Part shown: in pieces, positions 21,041 through 63,535 of the stretch
Layout of the letters: the number at the start of each line of letters is the position of its first letter
How positions within the stretch are numbered: position 1 is the stretch's first letter
Source of the DNA: Antedon mediterranea
Taxonomy: Eukaryota > Echinodermata > Crinoidea > Comatulida > Antedonidae
NCBI RefSeq assembly: GCF_964355755.1
Contig: NC_092674.1
Span: 30,616,001-30,680,000, forward strand
Direction: 5' to 3'
Length of the DNA: 64,000 bases
Notes under the pieces: model-generated
What the model was told of the DNA's origin: nothing
The model's input: the letters and a program-made list of their open reading frames with translations, nothing else
The model's database searches: none
Made by a program: the position numbers and the translations under genes

Positions 21041-22672
21041 AGTTTGTCTTATCCTGATATGGTTGGGTTGCTAACGAAACGTGACTCTTCGGTTACTATC
21101 GCCGTATCATCTGGGGTGTCACGAAACCTAAGACCACGAAAGCTAAGACCCCCTAAGACCTAAGATCACGAAAGCTAAGACCCAAGACCTAAGATTACAA
21201 ATTCTAAGATATACTACAGCTTAAAAACAATACTTGTTTATCCATACATAATTTTAAACACAGTAGGTTTCATTTATTACCATAAATATAATTTAATACC
21301 ACCGCAAAACATAGATAAACTCACATTATTTTCGCCTGTTGAGTAAATGTATATTTTTTCTTTACAACAAACAAACTTGACGGGGTGTTTGTTTGTATAT
21401 ATTTACTCCATTGTGTTGGTTCAGAGGATGTTTTTCTTACGCACCTGCCTTTCTTGTATTTTGACAAATTTGTTGACTAACTTTATCCTGAACACCACAC
21501 TTTAAAATTAGGACTTATAAGTACTTTCAGAAGGAGAAACACATAATAACAAATAAATAAATCCTTTAAATTTATGATTTTACAGATGTGTTTCTTTGTA
21601 TACTCAGGGAAGAGTTAAATTAGTTAACTCTTCCCTGGTATACTGTAATGTAACTCCTCGAGCTCCCCATGCTCAATGTTTTTGTTTCTATGGAGCGCCA
21701 AAAGAGCAACAATAATAGTACAAGTATAAAAACAGAAAGAAAACGAAACAAAAAAACTTATCATGAATTTTTAATTAAAATTTATTTGCCAGTATTTATT
21801 TCCTCGTACTTGCATGATTATACTATTAACATTACAATTTTAATTTTACATTGTTCCATCCACACTGTAGATGGACTCCACAGAGTTTTCAGCCCTCTAT
21901 ATAATTTTTGCTCTTTTGACGTTCCATAGAAACAAAAACATTGAACATGGGGTAGGCCTACTGAACTGTACTGTGTTGGCTAGTCATTTTGTGTGCGAGA
22001 AAAACGTCTGTAAAATCATCAAATCATCATTTAAAAATGCATTTGTTACTTTTTATGTGATTCTTTTTCATGAAAGTGCCAATTCTAAGGTGTGGTATTC
22101 AGAATAAATGTTGGGAGTTAAAATACAAGGCAGGTGCGAAAGATAAATATTTGTAATCTTAGGTCTTGGGTCTTAGCTTTCGTGATCTTAGGTCTTAGGG
22201 GGTCTTAGGTTTCGTGGTCTTAGGTTTCGTGACACCCGTATCAGGGGTGTAGTCTTGTTGCCTAGGTCTACTGTAGTTTGTCTTATCCTGATATGGTTGG
22301 GTTGCTAACGAAACGTGACTCTTCGGTTACTATCGCCGTATCATCTGTGTAGTCTTGTTGCCTAGGTCTACTGTAGTTTGTCTTATCCTGATATGGTTGG
22401 GTTGCTAACGAAACGTGACTCTTCGGTTACTATCGCCGTATCATCTGTGTAGTCTTGTTGCCTAGGTCTACTGTAGTTTGTCTTATCCTGATATGGTTGG
22501 GTTGCTAACGAAACGTGACTCTTCGGTTACTATCGCCGTATCATCTGTGTAGTCTTGTTGCCTAGGTCTACTGTAGTTTGTTTTATCCTGATATGGTTGG
22601 GTTGCTAACGAAACGTGACTCTTCGGTTACTATCGCCGTATCATCTGTGTAGTCTTGTCGCCTAGGTCTACC
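21041..22672 (-). repeat. 100 bp tandem array derived from the tail exon of the larger TSP1/EGF gene, split by an insertion
   Basis: The landmark CCTAGGTCTACTG recurs at 22261, 22361, 22461 and 22561, exactly 100 bases apart. A fifth copy is split: 21041-21115 lies left of a palindromic TIR element and 22241-22260 to its right. The gene-proximal copy (about 22573-22672) is the 3' half of the terminal coding exon of the TSP1/EGF gene, including its stop codon. The others are near-identical and lie downstream of that stop. 100 is not a multiple of three, so the copies cannot extend the protein as repeats. Confidence 0.9.
21114..22235. mobile_element. ~1.1 kb long-palindrome TIR element inserted in the 100 bp array
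   Basis: The left ~85 bases (GGGTGTCACGAAACCTAAG through repeats of GACCTAAGA, CACGAAAGCTAAGA) are the complement of the right end (..TCTTAGGTTTCGTGACACCC). Symmetry continues inward: ACGCACCTGCCTTTCTTGTA with TACAAGGCAGGTGCG, and CCCCATGCTCAATGTTTTTG with CAAAAACATTGAACATGGGG. A small palindrome AGGGAAGAGTTAA/TTAACTCTTCCCT lies at 21606-21637. The flanks share GTATCA(TCTG/GGGG), a possible eroded 8-10 bp target duplication. No transposase. Confidence 0.85.
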
Positions 22673-25600
22673 ATGGCGGTATACCTCCATAGGCGTACTG
22701 TAGTTTTGCACAGAAGGTCTACTATTTTTTAAAGTAGACTTACGTTTCTTTCTTCTATAGATGTAGATCAAACTGTAACATTAAAAAAATAGTTATCCAC
22801 TTTGACCAAAAATTGGATCGAAAAAAGTGTATTTACCTGAAAAAAACTGTAATTTAAAGCATAAAATGGTCAAATTAGCTGCCAGCCAATGGGGTTTTTG
22901 GTTCAAATTAGTTTATTTTGTCATTTTATAAGTGAAAACATTATTTTTTTTTTTTTTGCTTTTCTATGGAAGAGATTAACTTTATTAAAACTACATAATA
23001 ACATATTCAAAGTTTGATTTAATTAATCATTTTATTCAGTTTTTTATCTTTAACAAACATATAGATGAAAAAATGTTAAAACTACAAAATAACATATTCA
23101 AAGTCTGATTTAATTAATCATTTTTCATGTTTTTTCATCTTTAACAAACATAATACTGTATGTTACATTAAAATAGCATATTCATCAAAAGTTTGTTAAG
23201 AATTAATTTTTCAGTGGGACAATACATCTTAAGTGTATTTTTGTGTTTGATTGAGTATCCTGTATTTGCCTGGTAAGACTGGAACATGTGTTCTTACCTG
23301 ATTGTGATCCCAAGCAAGACGGTAACCAGCAAAGCATAAGAAATCAAAGTTCCAAATCCTGCCTTTTGAACCAACTTTTGTGATTTTAACGTTTCTTGGC
23401 AAGATTTCTCTTCTGTCAACGGCCCTTCGCATGTTCTTCCGGAACACGATGCGTATGTAGCGAAGTCTCGTGATCTTAATTGACGGGTTGCATTTTTACA
23501 CGAGGACCAATCGCTCCATTCCATGAAGCTGCAATCGACATCTTCGCACCCACAGCACACTCCACTATATCCATCTCTACAGTCACATTCGTTCTCATGT
23601 GGTTTGAGGACTCCGTTGTTGTAACAGTACTGGTTGCATTCTTTCTGTTCAACAAGGTCTATAGGACAGACAGCACCACCACAAGCTGAATCTTTCATAA
23701 TACTACGTGTACGGAACTGCTTTCCTAAAGGTCCACAATTTTTAGAACACGCTGACCATTTGCTCCAACCACTAATAATGCAATCTTGTATTTTACAGTC
23801 GCAACAAGAACCACTGTATCCATCTTTACAGTCACATCTCTGCTTGATGTCATTAAGTGTCCCGCCATTGTAACAAACCCGATTACAAGATTGCTCCCCA
23901 GATAACATCGAAGGAAGCATAGTTTCACCACAGAGAGACGATCTGTCAATGTCACGTGTTCTGAATCGTTTTCCTAGCGCAACACATGTATGAGAACATG
24001 ACGACCATTGACTCCAAGGAATCATAGCACAGTCCTGTAATTTCACACCACAACACTGTGGACCACTGAACCCATCTGGACATCTGCAAACGTCCTCTGA
24101 CCGAGCCAGAGTACCTTTGTTGTAACAAACGCGGTTACACGATTGCTGCTGAGAATAGACAGATGGACATTCACTTCCATCACACTCTGGTGGCTGTTGG
24201 ATATCTCGTGTTCGAAATCGAGTTCCTAAAGGACCACACTCGTGAGAACATGGTGACCAATCACTCCAATCTGTCATTTCACAATGTTTTATTTCACAAT
24301 CACAACATTTTCCACTATATCTAGAGGAACATCTACAATCAGTTCTGTATTTTACAGTCGCAACAAGCACCACTGTATCCATCTTTACAGTCACATCTCT
24401 GCTTGATGTCATTAGGTGTCCCGCCATTGTAACAAACTCGATTACACGATTGCTCCTCAGATAAAGGAAAAGAGCATGATCCACCACATTCTGCGGGTTG
24501 GTTGACGTCACGAACTTTAAACTGAGTTCCTAAAGCTCCACATGTTTTGGAACAAACTGACCAATCACTCCAAGATGATAGAGAACAACTTTTTACCTTA
24601 CAATCACAACAATCACCAGTGTATTCAGTTGTGCAGACACATTTACCGTCTATGAGTGTTCCTTCATTATAACAAATCCGATTACAAGATTGCTCTTCAG
24701 ATAATGTCGACGGAAGCATGGTTTCACCACAAACAGCCGATCTGTCAATGTCACGTGTTCTGAATCGTTTTCCTAGCGCACCACATGTATGTGAACATGA
24801 CGACCATTGGCTCCAAGGAATCATAGAACAGTTCTGTAATTTTTTCTCACAACACTGACCATCGAACCTATCTGGACATTTGCAAACATCCTCCAGATCA
24901 CCTTTGTTGTAACAAATGCGGTTACACGATTGCTGTTGTGAAAAGACAGATGGACATTCACTTCCACCACACTCTGGTGGCTGTTGGATATCTCGTGTTC
25001 GAAATCGAGTTCCTAAAGGACCACACTCGTGAGAACATGGTGACCAATCACTCCAAGACGATAGTAAGCAGTTTTTTACCGTACAGTTACAACATTCACC
25101 AGTGTATCCAGTTGTGCAGACACATTTACCGTCTATGAGTGTTCCTTCATTATAACAAACACGATTACAAGATTGCTCCTCAGATAATTTCGACGGAAGC
25201 ATGGTTTCACCACAAACATACGATCTGTCAATGTCACGTGTTCTGAATCGTTTTCCTAGCGCACCACATAAATGTGAACATGACGACCATTGGTTCCAAG
25301 GAACCATAGCACAGCGACAACACTGCCCACTGAACCCATCTGGACATCTGCAAACATCCTCCGAGGGAACCAGAGTACCTTTGTTGTGACAAATTAGGTT
25401 GCATTGTTCCTGTTGGGAAAAGACAGCTGGGCATTCACTTCCACCACACTCTGATGACCGCTGGATATCTCGTGTTCGAAATCGAGTTCCTAAAGGACCA
25501 GACTCGTGAGAACATGGTGACCAATCACTCCAATCTGTCATTTCACAATGCGTGATTTCACAATCACAACATTTTCCACTATATCCAGAGGAACATCTAC

Positions 25601-26644
25601 AACCATTGTTGTTTAATAATCCACCATTATAACAGACCCGATTACACGGTTGGTTTTCTAATAAAGAAGAAGAACACAGTCCTCCACATTCCGCTGGTTG
25701 GTAGACGTCACGAATTCTCAACTGAGTTCCTAGAGGACCGCATGTTTCGGAACAAACTGACCAATCACTCCAAGACGATAGTAAGCAGTTTTTTACCGTA
25801 CAGTTACAACATTCACCAGTGTATCCATTTCGGCAATAACATTGGTCGTTTGCAAGTGTTCCGTTATTGTAGCAAAACTGATTACATGGTTGGCTATCTG
25901 CTAAAGAAAAAGAACACGATCCACCACATTTTGCCGGTTCATTGACGTCACGAATTCTAAACTGAGTTCCTAGGGGACCACATGTTTCGGAACAAACTGA
26001 CCAATCACTCCAAGAAGATAGTAAGCAGTTTTTTACCGTACAGTTACAACATTCACCAGTGTATCCATTTCGGCAATAACATTGATCGTTTCCAAGTGTT
26101 CCTTTATTGTAGCAAAACTGATTACATTTCTGGTTTTCTGATAAAGAAAAAGGGCATGATCCACCACGTTCTGCCGGTTGGTGACGTCACGAATTCTAAA
26201 CTGAGTTCCTAAAGCTCCACATGTTTTGGAACAAACTGACCAATCACTCCAAGATGATAGAGAACAACCTTTTACCTTGAAATCACAACAATTACCAGTG
26301 TATTCAGTTGTGCAGACACATTTACCGTCTATGAGTGTTCCTTCATTATAACAAATCCGATTACACCTTTTTTTTTCATAAGATGGTCCTGTACAGGTCG
26401 CACCACCGCACGTTGATTCTTTGTGTATTTTTCTATACCTGTGTTGCATACCCTGTGTCCCGCACTCATGTGAACAGTTGCTCCATGGACTCCACCCTTC
26501 CCATTGACATGCGAATGGAGAGCATTTGTAACTTTTTTTTCCTATAAAAAATCCTGCAAGTAGGCCTAGGCCTATGCCTAAACATAATGCTACTACTACT
26601 GCTACTATAGCTTTGCAACTCCACTTCTTTTTGTTTTCTGCCAT
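22583..26644 (-). CDS. Large TSP1/EGF-repeat membrane protein (gene A), reading frame broken twice
   Basis: Exon 1 runs 26644-23298 and the tail exon 22772-22583, with donor ATCAG|GTAAGA and acceptor TAATGTTACAG, in phase. Residues ~1-35 hold KKK then a hydrophobic segment (AIVAVVVALCLGIGLGLLAG). About 13 TSP1 modules follow (CxxSxWSDWSxCSxxCGxLG, then RxRDV), most joined to an EGF-like unit ending in a CC pair (YSGKCCDC). Module period is ~240 bp. The last TSP1 lacks the CG step, and a second membrane segment follows (LISYALLVTVLLGITI). Exon 2 adds a basic stop-transfer (YRRKKRK) and a tail with several Tyr. Break 1 is near 26181, one base missing against sister modules. Break 2 is near 24340, where an EGF unit runs into the middle of another and part of a module is lost. 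It may be a decaying gene, a polymorphic allele or an assembly error. I infer a cell-surface role; no named orthologue. Confidence 0.72.
22780..23235 (-). mobile_element. Diverged copy of the AGATGTATTGTCCC MITE, in the last intron of gene A
   Basis: On the minus strand it resembles the element at 6041-6367, including TTAAGATGTATTGTCCCACTG at its end and the complement of AGTTATCCACTTTGACCAAA. An internal ~110 bp segment is duplicated (two ACATATTCAAAGT[TC]TGATTTAATTAATC blocks). The other inverted end is not recognisable. Confidence 0.7.
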
Positions 26645-27369
26645 AGTCTAGACAGGTCCTTCCACAATGATACGGTTCACAACTACATTTGAACTTCCGT
26701 GATTGTAATAGTTCTGATAATAAAACTTGGTCAAATATTTACCATGTAATGTTAAATGAAGATCGTTGTTTACACAGTCACCACTCAAGTAGGTGGTATT
26801 AATATTTTGATGCTTTTTAATTTCAACTCTAGAATGAGACCTTATTAACGTCTCTGCGCTCTTTTTCCTCAAGTTTTTTGGTGCCTGGTCTTGTTGGAAT
26901 TTGTGTTTTATTTTTCTTCGTCTGTTTAAGTCCGATTTTACGATAATATAGCTTGCAAGTTGAAATGAAACTGTTTCATATCCATGCAATTATACTATAC
27001 GTCAACAATAATACAACAATATTTGACAAATTACTTTTATTACTGTTCTGCTTTGTAGACAATTATATTATAAAATCAATAAATCAAGATGTATAGTAAA
27101 AGAACCCCCTTTTTTGCACTCTTTTTCAATATTACAGTCGAAGTACTTGATGATACAAGCTTTGGCAAATACAGTATAACATTTTAATAAGTAACATTTA
27201 TAAAAAAGTCAATAATTATTTTTGTTCGAATTAAGTTGAGTACATGAGTATGTACAAGATAACAATCGTGAAGTATGTACAATAATTCCCTGCTATCATT
27301 TATATATTTGCTTTGTGGGCTTCAAATAGGTCTCTGAAAGGCTAAAGTACAGTACCGTAGACTATATAC

Positions 27370-27520
27370 AAAACCAGACCAGACAACGCAACAACGCAGA
27401 CGCAACGCAAGCAAGTTGACCAATGACAAGAGAAAGTTTGAATAATCCATCGCTTGTGATTGGTCAAATCACTTTCTTTGTTACGTACTTAGTGTGTTGC
27501 GTCTCTAGTTGGAATCAAGC
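27370..27520. mobile_element. MITE, TCCCACTAGGACG family (diverged copy)
   Basis: The left part is CAACGCAGACGCAACGCAAGC with TTGACCAATGACAAG. The right part is GATTGGTCAAATCACTTTCT with GTTGCGTCTCTAGTTGGAATC. It is internally palindromic and shares its core with the copy at 11612-11772. Confidence 0.7.
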
Positions 27521-27652
27521 ATTTGTAAAATATATTGCTGCAGTGCTATAGGCATCTTAAGCACATCAAAACATACCTTAATCTAAAGTCAAATTTTCAA
27601 TTTTTTATAACAATAAATATAATACTAATATAATAATAATTTAAGTAAATTG

Positions 27653-27822
27653 AAGTTAAGTATACCGACCTAACAACGTACTCTCAAGTTAAGTATACCG
27701 ACCTAACAACGTACTCTCAAGTTAAGTATACCGACCTAACAACGTACTCTCAAGTTAAGTATACCGACCTAACAACGTACTCTCAAGTTAAGTATACCGA
27801 CCTAACAACGTACTCTCAAGTT
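27653..27822. repeat. 33 bp tandem repeat, 5 copies
   Basis: Five virtually identical units AAGTTAAGTATACCGACC..TAACAACGTACTCTC. The near-absence of differences implies recent amplification. Confidence 0.95.
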
Positions 27823-28090
27823 ATACAGTACTAATTAATAGATTTTGTAAAATACAATATTTAAAGTTGTAGCGTTTATATTCTCAATATTGCCTCATTA
27901 AATGCTTTCTCTAAGCTGATTCAGCCTCGAGTCATTTCGTTTCACAGCTCAGTTCATTGTCAATTTTATACAATAAATATTTGTTTCTCACGATTTATTT
28001 ATTTTTTAAGTGTTTAACTTTTACATAATTATAGTGTTATCAATCCTTCTCCATCGTACGCACGTCACACGTTCTTAAAAACATGCCCAT

Positions 28091-28236
28091 AAAGGTCTCT
28101 CTACACTATCAAACTATTTATTTATTTATTTATTTTATGGTAGTGATATGACATCATGATGTCCATATATGGGCACAACACATTTTTTTTGTCACATAAC
28201 GTTTGATAGTGTATGATAGTGATGATAGTGCTTAAT
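28091..28236. mobile_element. MITE, GCTCTGTCTACACTATC family
   Basis: The left end (GGTCTCTCTACACTATCAAA) and right end (GTTTGATAGTGTATGATAG..GCTTAA) are imperfect inverted repeats. The core ATGTCCATATATGGGCAC is shared with copies at 35850, 41746, 43050 and 59134. It lies just past the last exon of the smaller TSP1/EGF gene, perhaps in its 3' untranslated region. Confidence 0.75.
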
Positions 28237-28272
28237 GCCAACGAACATGCGCAGAGTGATTTTTGAAGGTCG

Positions 28273-31200
28273 CTATCCTTTAATAGCAGACTTTTCGTCC
28301 TCAATACTGCTATAGTTGACATACGTAGCAGCACCACCAACATTTCTGAAAAAAAACAAAGTTTTTATAACATTATAAATATTTTTAAAGTAGTTTATAT
28401 CAGCTGCTTAGTGGCGGATCCAGGGGGGGGGGCGTACCCTCCGCACGCCCCCTATAAATCTGGATAACAAAAATTGTCCTACCATAAGGGAAAAAAAAGG
28501 GGGGAAAAAGCGTAAAAAAGAGTAAAGTATTTCACTTTTGATTAAAACACATTGTTTTAGCGCCGTGCTAATTTACTTTTTATTAGAGGTCACCATTGCC
28601 GTTGCGGTCCGTAATGTGTTGCGAAATGAATTGCCTATTTTCACCTGAAACGCATTTTGGTCCCTGGATGTAACATGATATTGACGCGTGTATCGTACCC
28701 ATACTCGAGGCACGAACGATTCGTACAAAGGACACCGCCATACAACCGCTTAGGCCTACCTATTGTTTAGTGTATATACCTAAAAAATGGAACGCCGTGG
28801 TTTACCTAGATCATCAACTATAGAGGATTTAATAATAATATAGAACACTAACTGTGGTAACTGTACTGTAGTAGCAACCGATTTTTTTTTCTAGGCCACC
28901 CACCCAACTGTATCAATACCTATTTATATCTATGTATTTAATTTCTTCAACAAATTGATGTAAATAGGCCTAAATATTGAGCTATAAGCATTAAATTTGC
29001 TTCCCCGAGATGTACATTCGCATTGAACTTTTTGAACGCAACGCAATCAAAACTAACTGAGTGAATGAAATCGGCAACAAAATTTTATATCGTTCTGTAA
29101 TTAGTCACGTGTGTTTATTGGAGGGAAAAAGTATGATCGTTTTGCTCATTGGTAGAATGCTACATATGAGGGTGTCTTATCCTGCAAATTAAAGGTGCCA
29201 TTTATCATGAATTTTATGTGCGAGAGTACCATTTCTTCCGGCCATCTGGGGCGTCATTTAACAAAGTTCGCTTCGCCACAGGTCCTGTCGACGGCCCTGG
29301 ACAAGCACCTTTTTCCGCCATGTACGTGCAATTCAAACGCTGACTTGCGCGAAACGTCCTGTTGTGACGCTTTTACTCAAAATAGGCCTATAGGGAAACT
29401 GTCACCCTTTAATAGGCTAGTACCTCAGTTTTCATATTTAAAAAATCAATTTCTATTACATTTATTTAACGTGAGAGTGCCATTTCCGACCATCTAGAGG
29501 TGTTACATTTATCTAACGTGAGAGTGCCATTTCCGACCATCTAGAGGTGTTACATTTATTTAACGTGAGAGTGCCATTTCCGACCATCTAGAGGTGTTAC
29601 ATTTATTTAACGTGAGAGTGCCATTTCCGACCATCTAGGGGTGTTACATTTATTTAACGTGAGAGTGCCATTTCCGACCATCTAGAGGTGTTACATTTAA
29701 CATGAGAGTGCCATTTCCGACCATCTAGAGGTGTTACATTTATTTAACGTGAGAGTGCCATTTCCGACCATCTAGAGGTGTTACATTTAACATGAGAGTG
29801 CCATTTCCGACCATCTAGAGGTGTTACGTTTATTTAATGTGAGAGTGCCATTTCCGACCATCTAGAGGTGTTACATTTATTTAACGTGAGAGTGCCATTT
29901 CCGACCATCTAGAGGTGTTACATTTATTTAACGTGAGAGTGCCATTTCCGACCATCTAGAGGTGTTACATTTAACGTGAGAGTGCCATTTCCGACCATCT
30001 AGAGGTATTACATTTATCTAACGTGAGAGTGCCATTTCCGACCATCTAGAGGTGTTACATTTAACGTGAGAGTGCCATTTCCGACCATCTAGAGGTGTTA
30101 CATTTATTTAACGTGAGAGTGCCATTTCCGACCATCTAGAGGTGTTACATTTAACGTGAGAGTGCCATTTCCGACCATCTAGAGGTGTTACATTTAACGT
30201 GAGAGTGCCATTTCCGACCATCTAGAGGTGTTACATTTATTTAACGTGAGAGTGCCATTTCCGACCATCTAGAGGTGTTACATTTATTTAACGTGAGAGT
30301 GCCATTTCCGACCATCTAGAGGTGTTACATTTAACGTGAGAGTGCCATTTCCGACCATCTAGAGGTGTTACATTTAACGTGAGAGTGCCATTTCCGACCA
30401 TCTAGAGGTATTACATTTATTTAACGCGAGAGTGCCATTTCCGACCATCTAGAGGTGTTACATTTTCAAAATTGCCTCAACTGTGTGGACTCTCTTTCAC
30501 AAAATCCTGGATCTGTCCCTGCTGCTGCTTTTAACAAATTGTAAAACGTTCGGCGTATTTCCAAAATCTAAAACAATTTTTTATGACCATTTTCAGGGTA
30601 TTATTTGATAGTGTATGATAGACCTTAAACGGTTAAGATTACGGTGAATTACAATGATTAGGTTGATTAATCATGATGAACGATTATATTATATTCAAAG
30701 GTTTTCTGATGATGATATGCTAATGACCTCTGGTGCTGATAATTTAGAAAGAAAGTGAGCACCAATTGACAGTGAAATCTTAAATTATAAATGGTTTTAC
30801 CTTTTATGTCTAGTATAAAATAATAGTGCCATATAAATGAAGCTAATTGTCAACACCACTGCAGTAATAACGTTTAAGGCGATGAATCCTGGCTTTGACA
30901 CCAACACTTTTCCCTTCAAAGCGATACCGCAATTTTGTTCTTCTGTATAAGGTCCTTTACATTTTGTACCTGCGCATTCGGACTCCCGTACAACATCACG
31001 TGACCGTACGCGATTCGTTGCGTTCTCGCACGATGACCATGCAGTCCAGCTACTCAGTTCACAATCTATGTTTTTGCAATCACAGCACTGACCACTGTAT
31101 GTGGTCTTCAGACAATCACAACCTTTTGTTGTCAGTATACCTCCGTTGTAACAAACACGATTGCACGACTGTTCTTCAGTAGTTGGTTTGGAGCATTGTC

Positions 31201-31744
31201 CACATACCTCTAGAACATTTCGAACTCTAAATTGGATTCCACTGGCGCCGCATTCCTGTGTACATTCAGACCAGTTACTCCAATTACTGTATTGACACTC
31301 ACTACATCCTTCCTTACACTCTTGTTTTTGAGTGGTTGGTTCTGAGCATGTTCCGCATACTTTAAGTACGTCCCGAACTCTAAATTGAGTACCAGACTTA
31401 CCGCATTCTGGTGAGTAACACTCCGACCAAACACCCCAATCACTGTACTCACATCCACTACATGGTACATTACATGATTGTTCTTCAGTTGTAGGTTCAG
31501 GGCACACATGCGGTCCACATACATCCATCTGGAGTACGTTCCTAACCCTAAATTGAGTTCCTGAAGTCTTACCGCATTCTGACGAGTAGCACGCAGACCA
31601 TGGACCCCAATCACTGTACGTACATCCACTTTTGTGTTCAGACTTTGTCTTACGTATTTTCTCGTAACCCACTCCTCCGAAAAAAAGTCCCAAACCAGCT
31701 ACTACTACGAACAGGAATATTATTGCAATTGCTTTACCGCCCAT
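28273..31744 (-). CDS. Small TSP1/EGF membrane protein (gene B) with tyrosine-rich cytoplasmic tail
   Basis: Exon 1 runs 31744-30801 and exon 2 runs 28345-28273, with donor AAAAG|GTAAAA and acceptor TTTTTTTTCAG, in phase; ~338 aa. After MGGK comes a hydrophobic stretch (AIAIIFLFVVVAGLGLFFGG), a signal peptide or signal anchor. Three short TSP1 modules follow (CxYSxWGxWSxCxSxECG, then GTQFRVRxV). Next come a CNRVCYNGG EGF-like unit with the family's CC pair and a fourth TSP1 of the divergent type (SSCENATNRVRSRDV) seen at the end of gene A. A membrane helix (VLTISFIYMALLFY) is followed by TRHKR. The second exon adds ~24 residues with TYVNYSSIEDEK; YVN fits a GRB2-type SH2 site and YSSI a Yxx-hydrophobic motif. 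The ATG at 31744 is the first real ATG; the codon two upstream is TTG. A hAT-like element fills the intron. Confidence 0.75.
28412..30517. mobile_element. hAT-like non-autonomous element with internal minisatellite, in the gene B intron
   Basis: The left end AGTGGCGGATCCAGGGGG and right end AAAATCCTGGATCTGTCCCTG are imperfect complements of the CAGxGGCGGATCCAGGA type common in hAT elements. No transposase frame. Between them lies a ~1 kb minisatellite. Assignment rests on the terminal motif only. Confidence 0.6.
29462..30466. repeat. 43/47 bp minisatellite (GAGAGTGCCATTTCCGACC)
   Basis: About 22 copies of (TTAT)TTAACGTGAGAGTGCC..ATTTCCGACCATCTAGAGG..TGTTACA. Two length classes differ by a TTAT insertion. 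A diverged single unit at about 29216-29262 (GTGCGAGAGTACCATTTC, CGGCCATCTGGGGCGTCATTTAAC) looks like the ancestral sequence inside the element. Confidence 0.93.
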
Positions 31745-32138
31745 CTTCAATCTAGTATGTGACTACTGCAGAACGTCGACGTCGATCGAATGATTAGAAA
31801 TAAATAGGAATTTCCAAAATCGATAACAATCATTTTCTTTGAGTAGTCTTTTGTACAGACGTACTGTGGTTGAATATTCGACCGTGCTCGACCTACCAAT
31901 TTGGTATATTTCATATACAGAGGGGTTTTAATAACGAGAGAACGAACGAGCACAAGCGAGCAAGATGAAAGCCTGAACAAAAAGACAAGGCCTACAAAAT
32001 AAAACACCACAAATATGTATTTAATATTATATAGCTTCGAATTTACAAGTTTAAGAAACTATCAGGGTGTTAAAAATATAACGATATCTTTACTCCATGG
32101 ATATAGGTACTGTAATAATGATTTGTAATGTATTCACT
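31640..32138. repeat. 499 bp tandem duplication, copy 1 (includes 5' end of gene B)
   Basis: Bases from AGACTTTGTCTTACG at 31640 to ~32138 recur immediately at 32139 with an exact offset of 499. Copy 1 holds the first ~35 codons of gene B and ~390 bp upstream of its ATG. Differences are few (e.g. CTTCAATC against CTTCTATC). Confidence 0.93.
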
Positions 32139-32243
32139 AGACTTTGTCTTACGTATTTTCTCGTAACCCACTCCTCCGAAAAAAAGTCCCAAACCAGCTA
32201 CTACTACGAACAGAAATATTATTGCAATTGCTTTACCGCCCAT
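32139..32243 (-). pseudogene. Orphan 5' fragment of gene B
   Basis: From an ATG at 32243 the minus strand reads the gene B start (MGGKAIAII..GLGLFFGGVGY..KIRKTKS) and then leaves homology at the duplication boundary, before any TSP1 module. With its own copied upstream region it could be transcribed, but it encodes only the hydrophobic leader. A few further non-homologous codons may follow. Confidence 0.8.
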
Positions 32244-32612
32244 CTTCTATCTAGTATGTGACTACTGCGCAGAACGTCGACGTCGATCGAATGATTAGAA
32301 ATAAATAGGAATTTCCAAAATCGATAACAATCATTTTCTTTGAGTAGTCTTTTGTACAGACGTACTGTGGTTGAATATTCGACCGTGCTCGACCTACCAA
32401 TTTGGTATATTTCATATACAGAGGGGTTTTAATAACGAGAGAACGAACGAGCACAAAAGCGAGCAAGATGAAAGCCTGAACAAAAAGACAAGGCCTACAA
32501 AATAAAACACCACAAATATGTATTTAATATTATATAGCTTCGAATTTACAAGTTTAAGAAACTATCAGGGTGTTAAAAATATAACGATATAGGTACTGTA
32601 ATGATTTGTATT
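32139..32612. repeat. 499 bp tandem duplication, copy 2
   Basis: Second copy, slightly shortened near its right end (the CTTTACTCCATGGATAT segment is missing). Its right edge abuts the 5' region of the RING ligase gene. It therefore duplicates gene B's presumed promoter between two divergent genes. Confidence 0.93.
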
Positions 32613-32780
32613 CGTTCCAAGATGGTAAGAAGCGTTCAGAATGTTGTGATGATACTTCTCTGTGTTCTTTGGCCGCCGCAGCCGAAACGACCATCAACAA
32701 CAAGGTCTAGGCCTAGTAGTAGTAGGCCTAGTCGTGTGGGCATTGTCAGTGGTAAAATACCACTTTTATTAACTGAGCAA

Positions 32781-35700
32781 ATGAGAAGATCAGGATTGAG
32801 TTGGGCTTTAATTTTACTAATTTTACTTGGATTTGCTTTTCCGTCAGTCTCATGTACATATGACTCGTACGCAAGTAATCGGAATAATGAGAAAAATGTT
32901 AATGTAACATATATTGAGGAAGTTCAAAAAGTGAACAAAACTCATATTATTCAATCTGCTAAATATCTTATACCACCAAATCTTCCAAAGCATGTGTTTG
33001 GTATTCTTATACAACCGAGTGAAAAAAAAGGTTGTAAAAATGAAGATTATTACAAAAATGGAAAGTTAAAATTACCACCAAATAATGAACAGTGGATTGC
33101 TTTAGTTACGGACGAAAAATGTCCTAACTCCCAGAATAGTAACAACATCAAAAACTTTGAAATAAAAAGTGCGGTAGCGCAAGCGCTGAACGCATCCGCT
33201 TTGTTAGTATACGGTTCTCAAAGCTTCCACAACAATCGTCAAACTCAAAGCATCAGTAAGTTTTAACTTTTTTTGTTCATGACACTTTTTAAACCATTCA
33301 TCATTCACTAATCAATTGTCATCTTACATCATCAAGTCTATCAACATCATCTTACATCATCAAGTCTATCAACATCATCTTACATCATCAAGTCTATCAA
33401 CATCTTACATCATCAAGTCTATCAACATCATCTTACATCATCAAGTCTATCAACATCATCTTACATCATCAAGTCTATCAACATCATCTTACATCATCAA
33501 GTCTATCAACATCATCTTACATCATCAAGTCTATCAACATCATCTTACATCATCAAGTCTATCAACATCATCTTACATCATCAAGTCTATCAACATCATC
33601 TTACATCATCAAGTCTATCAACATCATCTTACATCATCAAGTCTATCAACATCATCTTACATCATCAAGTCTATCAACATCATCTTACATCATCAAGTCT
33701 ATCAACATCATCTTACATCATCAAGTCTATCAACATCATCTTACATCATCAAGTCTATCAACATCATCTTACATCATCAAGTCTATCAACATCATCTTAC
33801 ATCATCAAGTCTATCAACATCATCTTACATCATCAAGTCTATCAACATCATCTTACATCATCAAGTCTATCAACATCATCTTACATCATCAAGTCTATCA
33901 ACATCATCTTACATCATCAAGTCTATCAACATCATCTTACATCATCAAGTCTATCAACATCATCTTACATCATCAAGTCTATCAACATCATCTTACATCA
34001 TCAAGTCTATCAACATCATCTTACATCATCAAGTCTATCAACATCATCTTACATCATCAAGTCTATCAACATCATCTTACATCATCAGGTCTATCAACAT
34101 CATCTTACATCATCAAGTCTATCAACATCATCTTACATCATCAAGTCTATCAACATCATCTTACATCATCAAGTCTATCAACATCATCTTACATCATCAA
34201 GTCTATCAACATCATCTTACATCATCAAGTCTATCAACATCATCATACATCATCAAGTCTATCAACATCATCTTACATCATCAAGTCTATCAACATCATC
34301 TTACATCATCAAGTCTATCAACATCATCTTACATCATCAAGTCTATCAACATCATCTTACATCATCAAGTCTATCAACATCATCTTACATCATCAAGTCT
34401 CTCAACATCATCTTACATCATCAAGTCTATCAACATCATCAAGTCTATCAACATCATCTTACATCATCAAATCTATCAACATCATCTTACATCATCAAGT
34501 CTATCAACATCATCTTACATCATCAAGTCTATCAGCACCATCTTACATCATCAAGTCTATCAACATCATCATACATCATCAAGTCTATCAACATCATCTT
34601 AAATCATCAAGTCTATCAACATCATCTTACATCATCAAGTCTATCAACATCATCTTACATCATCAAGTCTATCAACATCATCTTACATCATCAAGTCTAT
34701 CAACATCATCTTACATCATCAAGTCTATCAACATCATCATACATCATCAAGTCTATCAACATCATCTTAAATCATCAAGTCTATCAACATCATCTTACAT
34801 CATCAAGTCTATCAACATCATCTTACATCATCAAGTCTATCAACATCATCTAACATCATCAAGTCTACAGTATCAACATCATCTTACATCATCAAGTCTA
34901 TCAACATCATCTAACATCATCAAGTCTATCAACATCATCTTACATCATCAAGTCTATCAACATCATCATACATCATCAAGTCTATCAACATCATCTTACA
35001 TCATCAAGTCTATCAACATCTTACATCATCAGGTCTATCAACATCATCCTGTCTATCAACATCATCCTGTCTATCAACATCATCCTGTCTATCAACATCA
35101 TCCTGTCTATCAACATCATCCTGTCTATCAACATCATCGTAAATAATCAAGTCTATTAACATCATCTTACTATACAGTACAAACCTCCAAATATTTAGGG
35201 ATAATATAATGATAGATCAATTCAGATCATAGAGACATGAGGTTTATTTAGAAACATAATTATCAACTTTAATTTCAGATTTGCAAATTCCAGTAATTCA
35301 ATTATCGAAAAGTGAGGGTGAGGATATTTCTAAAAAAATTTCTGGAGACGATAAGAGGATATGGGTTGATTTGCAGCCGTCATTGAATTCTAAAGTTGCA
35401 ACTCCAATACGAAAGTCTTCAGTATTATTTGTGTCTATTTCTTTTATTGTTTTGATGGTCATATCTTTAGCATGGCTGGTGTTTTATTATGTACAGAGAT
35501 TCCGATTTGCACAAGCTAGAGACAGGACACAGGTATGCAACTTTCATTTATGTTATTGATATAGATAAGGCATAACTAGATTTTTGTTGGAGGGCTATCA
35601 TTTATATGCATATTGCGATTCGCAAAAAAAGAGAGCATCTCTCAACAACATTTAAGTCTACTAGATCTTAAACCCGAGTAATAATTAATAAGTACATGAG

Positions 35701-62204: not shown

Positions 62205-63535
62205 TGCTGACTTCACTATACAAGATTAATTCTGCCTATTTACCAACATTCTTGGAGTAGTTTCTAGTAACAAACCACGTCAACATTTCTACTGCTGTTT
62301 TACTGGATTAATCTGCCTATTTACCTACATTCTTGGAGTAGTTTCTAGTAACAAACCATGTCAACATTTCTACTGCTGTTTTACTGGATTAATTCTGCCT
62401 ATTTACCAACATTCTTGGAGTAGTTTCTAGTAACAAACCACGTCAACATTTCTACTGCTGTTTTACTGGATTAATCTGCCTATTTACCTACATTCTTGGA
62501 GTAGTTTCTAGTAACAAACCATGTCAACATTTCTACTGCTGTTTTACTGGATTAATTCTGCCTATTTACCAACATTCTTGGAGTAGTTTCTAGTAACAAA
62601 CCACGTCAACATTTCTACTGCTGTTTTACTGGATTAATTCTGCCTTTTTACCAACATTCTTGGAGTAGTTTCTAGTAACAAACCACGTCAACATTTCTAC
62701 TGCTGTTTTACTGGATTAATTCTGCCTATTTACCAACATTCTTGGAGTAGTTTCTAGTAACAAACCACGTCAACATTTCTACTGCTGTTTTACTGGATTA
62801 ATTCTGCCTATTTACCAACATTCTTGAAGTAGTTTCTAGTAACAAACCACGTCAACATTTCTACTGCTGTTTTACTGGATTAATTCTGCCTTTTTACCAA
62901 CATTCTTGGAGTAGTTTCTAGTAACAAACCACGTCAACATTTCTAATGCTGTTTTACTGGATTAATTCTGCCTATTTACCTACATTCTTGGAGTAGTTTC
63001 TAGTAACAAACCACGTCAACATTTCTACTGCTGTTTTACTGGATTAATTCTGCCTATTTACCAACATTCTTGGTAGTTTCTAGTAACAAACCACGTCAAC
63101 ATTTCTACTGCTGTTTTACTGGATTAATTCTGCCTATTTACCAACATTCTTGGAGTAGTTTCTAGTAACAAACCATGTAAACATTTCTACTGCTGTTTTA
63201 CTGGATTAATTCTGCCTTTTTACCAATATTCTTTGAGTAGTTTCTAGTAACAAACCATGTCAACATTTCTACTGCTGTTTTACTGGATTAATTCTGCCTA
63301 TTTACCAACATTCTTGGAGTAGTTTCTAGTAACAAACCACGTCAACATTTCTACTGCTCAGTTTTACTGGATTAATTCTGCCTATTTACCAACATTCTTG
63401 GAGTAGTTTCTAGTAACAAACCATCAACATTTCTACTGCTGTTTTACTGGACTAATTCTGCCTATTTACCAACATTCTTGGAGTAGTTTCTAGTAACAAA
63501 CCACGTCAACATTTCTACTGCTGTTTTACTGTAGT
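62205..63535 (+). repeat. ~82 bp minisatellite, 16 copies
   Basis: The unit is GATTAATTCTGCCTATTTAC, CAACATTCTTGGAGTAGTTT, CTAGTAACAAACCACGTCAAC, ATTTCTACTGCTGTTTTACTG. Alternation of early copies (ATTAATCTGCC/TTTACCTAC against ATTAATTCTGCC/TTTACCAAC) shows a two-unit higher-order step at the left end. Confidence 0.95.

Follow-up and report, generated by a model that had tools for sequence, protein, structure and literature searches.

A small and rapidly changing family of thrombospondin-repeat surface proteins with a possible membrane anchor at each end

Two genes of one plan on the minus strand

The window, that is, the whole stretch of 64,000 nucleotides that was analysed (C5:30616001-30680000), belongs to an assembly of 354 Mb in 18 contigs. 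Bindin is a protein known from echinoderms, and a bindin core domain is present elsewhere in the same genome (PF02084, E 2.3e-28) and in 0 of 14 control genomes, which identifies the host as an echinoderm. Within the window, two minus-strand genes, A and B, share the layout that the original prediction had given them, and the parts of this layout were found in both: an N-terminal hydrophobic segment, TSP1 modules, a divergent last TSP1 of the form SSC(E/K)NAT...RSRD, a second hydrophobic helix and, past the helix, a phase-2 donor joining in frame to a short candidate tail exon. The features are as follows, in window coordinates.

31744-28273, minus: gene A, one large exon plus tail exon, 338 aa, open throughout
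30801-31744, minus: gene A exon 1, one uninterrupted frame of 314 complete codons, donor GT at 30800
31664-31732, minus: gene A N-terminal segment, hydrophobic, 23 uncharged residues; either a signal peptide or a signal anchor
31070-31165, minus: gene A EGF-like unit with a CC pair, its cysteine pattern common to the gene B units
30929-31066, minus: gene A divergent last TSP1, SSCENATNRVRSRD, common to eight genes
30818-30883, minus: gene A C-terminal membrane helix, predicted from sequence; helix 288-314 in the AlphaFold model
28273-28345, minus: gene A candidate tail exon (R)NVGGAATYVNYSSIEDEKSAIKG, stop included; phase-2 match, acceptor, final G
32139-32590, minus: shortened tandem duplicate of the 5' end of gene A, matching 31640-32087 at 446 of 448 aligned bases
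26644-22583, minus: gene B, plan as gene A, two frame breaks
23298-26644, minus: gene B exon 1, start ATG 26644, donor at 23297, broken twice
26540-26611, minus: gene B N-terminal segment, hydrophobic, with an 11-residue basic start before its 24 uncharged residues
26165-26190, minus: gene B first frame break, a 1-bp deletion near 26170-26185 relative to sister modules
24325-24345, near 24340, minus: gene B second frame break, an out-of-frame junction of two modules with part of a module missing
23399-23542, minus: gene B divergent last TSP1, SSCKNATRQLRSRD
23300-23356, minus: gene B C-terminal membrane helix, extended by LIYIY of the tail exon
22583-22772, minus: gene B candidate tail exon (S)LIYIYRRKKRK...NPTISG, stop included; phase-2 match, final G

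Exon 1 of gene A starts with the ATG at 31744, a few codons downstream of an in-frame stop, and contains the N-terminal segment, three TSP1 modules, one EGF-like unit, the divergent last TSP1 and the membrane helix. In the last TSP1 an N-x-T sequon replaces one cysteine region. The candidate tail exon has a strong acceptor, TTTTTTTTCAG, and the codon split by the proposed splice encodes Arg, as it does in paralogues. Exon 1 of gene B has the N-terminal segment, 13 TSP1 modules, about 12 EGF-like units and the membrane helix, which spans the splice into the tail exon (ITI/S LIYIY RRKKRK). A tandem array of 100 bp units (22236-22671, 4.4 copies, 98%) covers the 3' half of this tail exon, and every unit repeats the same tail end and stop; the view of the tail exon as a genome-wide repeat was rejected, its matches being confined to this locus. 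An open frame on the plus strand beside gene A (32577-33266) has a weak match to the PA domain, with 18.3 bits against a cut-off of 23.9.

Domain content and fold

The TSP1 modules are recognized by Pfam above the cut-off of 41 bits, PF19028 scoring 82 bits in A and 200 bits in the middle frame of B, and in gene A they are the only Pfam domain above cut-off. The EGF-like units with a CC pair, also part of the original prediction, keep their cysteine pattern and are called EGF-like by that pattern alone, as no Pfam EGF model reached its cut-off (EGF_TEN, the best, 21.6 against 65; EGF_Tenascin, 15.7 against 25). The sole PDB sequence match was TSR1 of F-spondin. AlphaFold gave gene A a low-confidence model (pLDDT 60.7, pTM 0.25), compatible with four TSP1 strand sets and end helices, including helix 4-19 at the N-terminus, and too weak for the reading of disulfides or helix packing; with this model as the query, the best fold matches were the TSRs of properdin and thrombospondin-1.

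Distribution of the family in the genome

When the genome was searched with a consensus of family members, the divergent last TSP1 followed by the membrane helix was found in eight genes. Besides A and B these are a group of three on C9 (6.69-6.73 Mb) and another three on C3 (1.03-1.04 Mb); a remote relative lies at C5:27.2 Mb. In all eight genes a phase-2 donor lies directly 3' of the helix. These eight recurrences, the common donor phase and the recurrence of tail exons in paralogues place the layout beyond chance, and the family itself is real. The low substitution ratios of A against C9-5 (dN 0.195, dS 1.205, dN/dS about 0.16) and of C9-5 against C9-6 (dN 0.068, dS 0.312, dN/dS 0.22) indicate purifying selection on the protein. 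Both the shared last domain, helix and donor and the selection on A support the earlier proposal of a membrane family of receptor or adhesion type, most likely TSP1 surface receptors or adhesion proteins restricted to one lineage.

A and B had also been described as a neighbouring pair, which holds for their adjacency and common plan. They are not closest relatives, because the last domain of A is nearer to that of a C9 gene (77% identity) than to that of B (40%), so that an origin of the pair by recent tandem duplication was rejected. The last module has five cysteines in most members, and the total number of cysteines is odd in A, C9-5 and C3-2 but even in C9-6; thus, a disulfide dimer through an unpaired cysteine is only a guess.

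Module turnover and frame breaks

The repeat units of gene B share 49-91% DNA identity, a range that fits growth of the array by duplication within the exon. Upstream of gene A, the tandem copy of its 5' end stays in frame for only about 37 codons and could encode a short membrane peptide; it is another sign of recent turnover. As assembled, frame 0 of gene B ends at 203 codons because of its two breaks, a feature absent from the original description, so that the idea of an intact pair is not supported, and frame breaks or a stop are also found in C9-1, C9-6, C3-1 and C3-3, so that five of the eight copies are broken, while exon 1 is open throughout in A, C9-5 and C3-2.

It is therefore fairly probable that gene B and several relatives are pseudogenes of a birth-and-death family, in which only A, C9-5, C3-2 and the members with a GPI-type end (see below) would be intact. 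The second break of B, a module junction, and the stop of C3-1, a substitution, look real, as neither is a homopolymer error. Against this, assembly collapse and indel errors arise easily in repeat arrays, and the remainder of B retains well-formed modules, the donor and the tail. Such a decay would affect B and not the family, and thus also fits the reading of the family as surface recognition proteins.

Possible anchoring of the N-terminus

The original prediction had left two topologies side by side, type I with a cleaved signal peptide or anchorage at both ends. The latter is favoured, not proven, by the N-terminal sequences, whose uncharged runs comprise 18-28 residues in 11 family members, compared with 12-13 in four controls from the same genome, TSP1 proteins whose ordinary signal peptides are followed by Arg runs; the exact one-sided value of 0.0007 assumes an independence that paralogues do not have. 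In addition, B and C9-1 to C9-4 carry 10-19 hydrophilic residues ahead of the run. The longer runs and hydrophilic starts point to an uncleaved signal anchor, hence to membrane attachment at both ends. In 10 of the 11 N-termini the run has a Gly pair close to its end, which also speaks against cleavage.

The other topology, an ordinary type I receptor with the signal peptide cleaved, the C-terminal helix as the sole anchor, the N-terminus outside and the tail inside, is a less probable reading but a serious one. Signal peptides are well known from membrane TSP1 proteins, and other TSP1 proteins of this genome have them. Moreover, A, C9-5 and C3-2 have short starts of 4-6 residues before the hydrophobic run, small residues suited to cleavage lie within the run, and the charges after the first segment of A favour the other orientation; a cleaved signal peptide is thus possible, and the short n-regions of A and C9-5 count against the double anchor. 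A long TSP1 rod fixed at both ends would also have to bend or lie flat, which is a further point against it.

Two C9 relatives, L058 (G000:C9:6711636-6712559) and G000:C9:6719705-6720271, have the long N-terminal segment and TSP1 modules, lack the last TSP1 and carry a GPI-like signal where the eight genes have helix and tail: a Ser-rich spacer is followed by a hydrophobic stretch at the very C-terminus, in a sequence arrangement typical of GPI signals. Elsewhere in the genome, the TSP1 proteins L065 (C3:1356968-1359565), L068, L069 and L070 begin with an ordinary signal peptide, after which come 8-9 arginines in a row; in the first of these, TSP1 and CC EGF-like units alternate within one frame of 866 codons.

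Tail exons and the final glycine

The candidate tail exons of the paralogues fall into different grades of similarity, while the introns ahead of them mostly do not align. C9-5 and C9-6 share theirs at the DNA level (79% over 89 bases, E 1e-8), and the C3 tails are alike as protein, with alignment scores of 53 and 40 compared with at most 31 for the others under the same query.

C9-5 tail: VQKKIDDGASQEKESFNSPEYRLEEQCTIIG, DNA match to C9-6
C9-6 tail: TQEDTDGASQEEESVRCISDGRLEEPVLG, DNA match to C9-5
C3-1 tail: TYKKKKAYEYADEHADDDDNSDQLSYVFG, protein likeness among C3 genes
C3-3 tail: AAAAYKKKKKGYTRANDNDECEKDSFDMG, protein likeness among C3 genes
C3-2 tail: PAADKKKIKEETNKRDNDNELEKD, protein likeness among C3 genes
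C9-1 tail: DEIIEKK, placed by position only

By sequence, neither the A tail nor the B tail matches the other family tails; phase, position and the final glycine are what they have in common with them, and their assignment is supported by phase, acceptor and that glycine. Basic residues lie immediately 3' of the C-terminal helix. It is very improbable that exon 1 alone is the gene, its frame closing at the stop made by the donor (AGG TAA) with the tail exons unused: the unspliced frame does reach TAA right at the donor in seven of eight genes and the A and B tails match no others, but a phase-2 AG/GTAA donor creates such a stop automatically, the tail exons recur in C9-5/C9-6 and among the C3 genes, and that of B completes the helix and adds basic stop-transfer residues.

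A final glycine closes six of the eight tails, five of them as [I/V]-x-G, against a background of 3.6% in the window; among 152 distinct candidate tail ends, eight end in G and six of these are among the family tails, a check that is post hoc, since the glycine was noticed once the tails had been chosen. As a C-degron of the KLHDC type the C-terminal glycine is a lead only, and it offers a concrete, testable site. The tyrosine-bearing tail of the original prediction did not survive as a shared feature, the number of tyrosines per tail being 0-4, with none in three of eight and no shared motif. Tyrosine signalling was likewise rejected as the common role of the tail; YVN and an ITIM-like VNYSSI occur only in A and are weak.

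Proposed organization and function

Membrane proteins with TSP1 modules serve in the recognition of matrix and of other cells. A and B belong to one small multigene family, whose members would act in recognition or adhesion at the cell surface and whose ectodomain may form a rod of TSP1 and EGF-like modules encoded by a single exon and varying in length by module duplication within that exon, from four TSP1 in A to 13 in B. The rod would close with the last TSP1 and its N-glycan sequon, followed by the membrane helix, and the second exon would supply a short, charged cytoplasmic tail, usually ending in [I/V]-x-G. The N-terminal segment, which most probably stays in the membrane as a signal anchor, would place both termini in the cytosol; the rod may bind matrix, glycans or neighbouring cells, and the tail may relay this binding or bring about its turnover.

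Taken as a whole, this picture is judged somewhat better than even as the best explanation. It draws on the last TSP1, helix and donor shared by eight genes, the likeness of the tails, dN/dS, the run lengths, the basic residues and the glycine; the short starts, the geometry of a doubly fixed rod and the broken copies weigh on the other side. A wider reading, put forward tentatively at a little under even, is that of lineage-specific TSP1/EGF rods held by the membrane at both ends, ending in either an [I/V]-x-G tail or a GPI anchor and changing length within one exon. If this were true, TSP1 rods with two membrane segments, an exchange of tail for GPI and module turnover would make a case of fast evolution of surface receptors in echinoderms.

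Relation to known proteins

F-spondin, properdin and thrombospondin-1 (PF19028, PF00090) resemble A and B in their spondin-type TSP1 modules; however, these are secreted proteins in which the CC EGF-like units, the NAT last module, the helices and the tail exon are all missing. UNC5, semaphorin 5 and the "TSR + TM" group of sea slugs (PMC7663992) likewise carry TSP1 modules on a membrane protein, whereas Ig, Sema and death domains are absent from A and B. The consulted part of the sea-slug study reports lineage-specific new domain arrangements for sea-slug TSR proteins and does not describe alternating CC EGF-like units with a divergent last TSP1 (PMC7663992), and the layout of A and B is not described in the part consulted of a review of echinoderm matrix proteins (PMC10381214). 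The statement that no named family has this layout holds for Pfam, NCBIfam and PDB, and literature searches did not find a description of this TSP1/EGF two-helix family; animal protein databases lay outside the scope of the comparison.

Regarding the anchoring, tetherin (BST-2) is a precedent for an N-terminal helix combined with a GPI end (PMC3715405). The likeness is confined to the manner of anchoring, by an N-terminal membrane segment and a second C-terminal anchor, as in the two GPI-like C9 relatives; tetherin has a coiled-coil ectodomain without TSP1, while A and B have neither a coiled-coil ectodomain nor a C-terminal GPI signal and end in helix and tail. In CD36 and scavenger receptors of class B, the extracellular part is flanked by two membrane segments with both termini inside (PMC7663992, in the part consulted), the same arrangement as proposed for A and B, in which Pfam finds no CD36 domain.

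Other repeats in the window

An array with a period of 47 bases occupies 29456-30465, within the gene A intron. Long tandem arrays are also found at 33319-35170 (period 28), 62224-63531 (period 82) and 289-2420 (periods of 131/264 bases).
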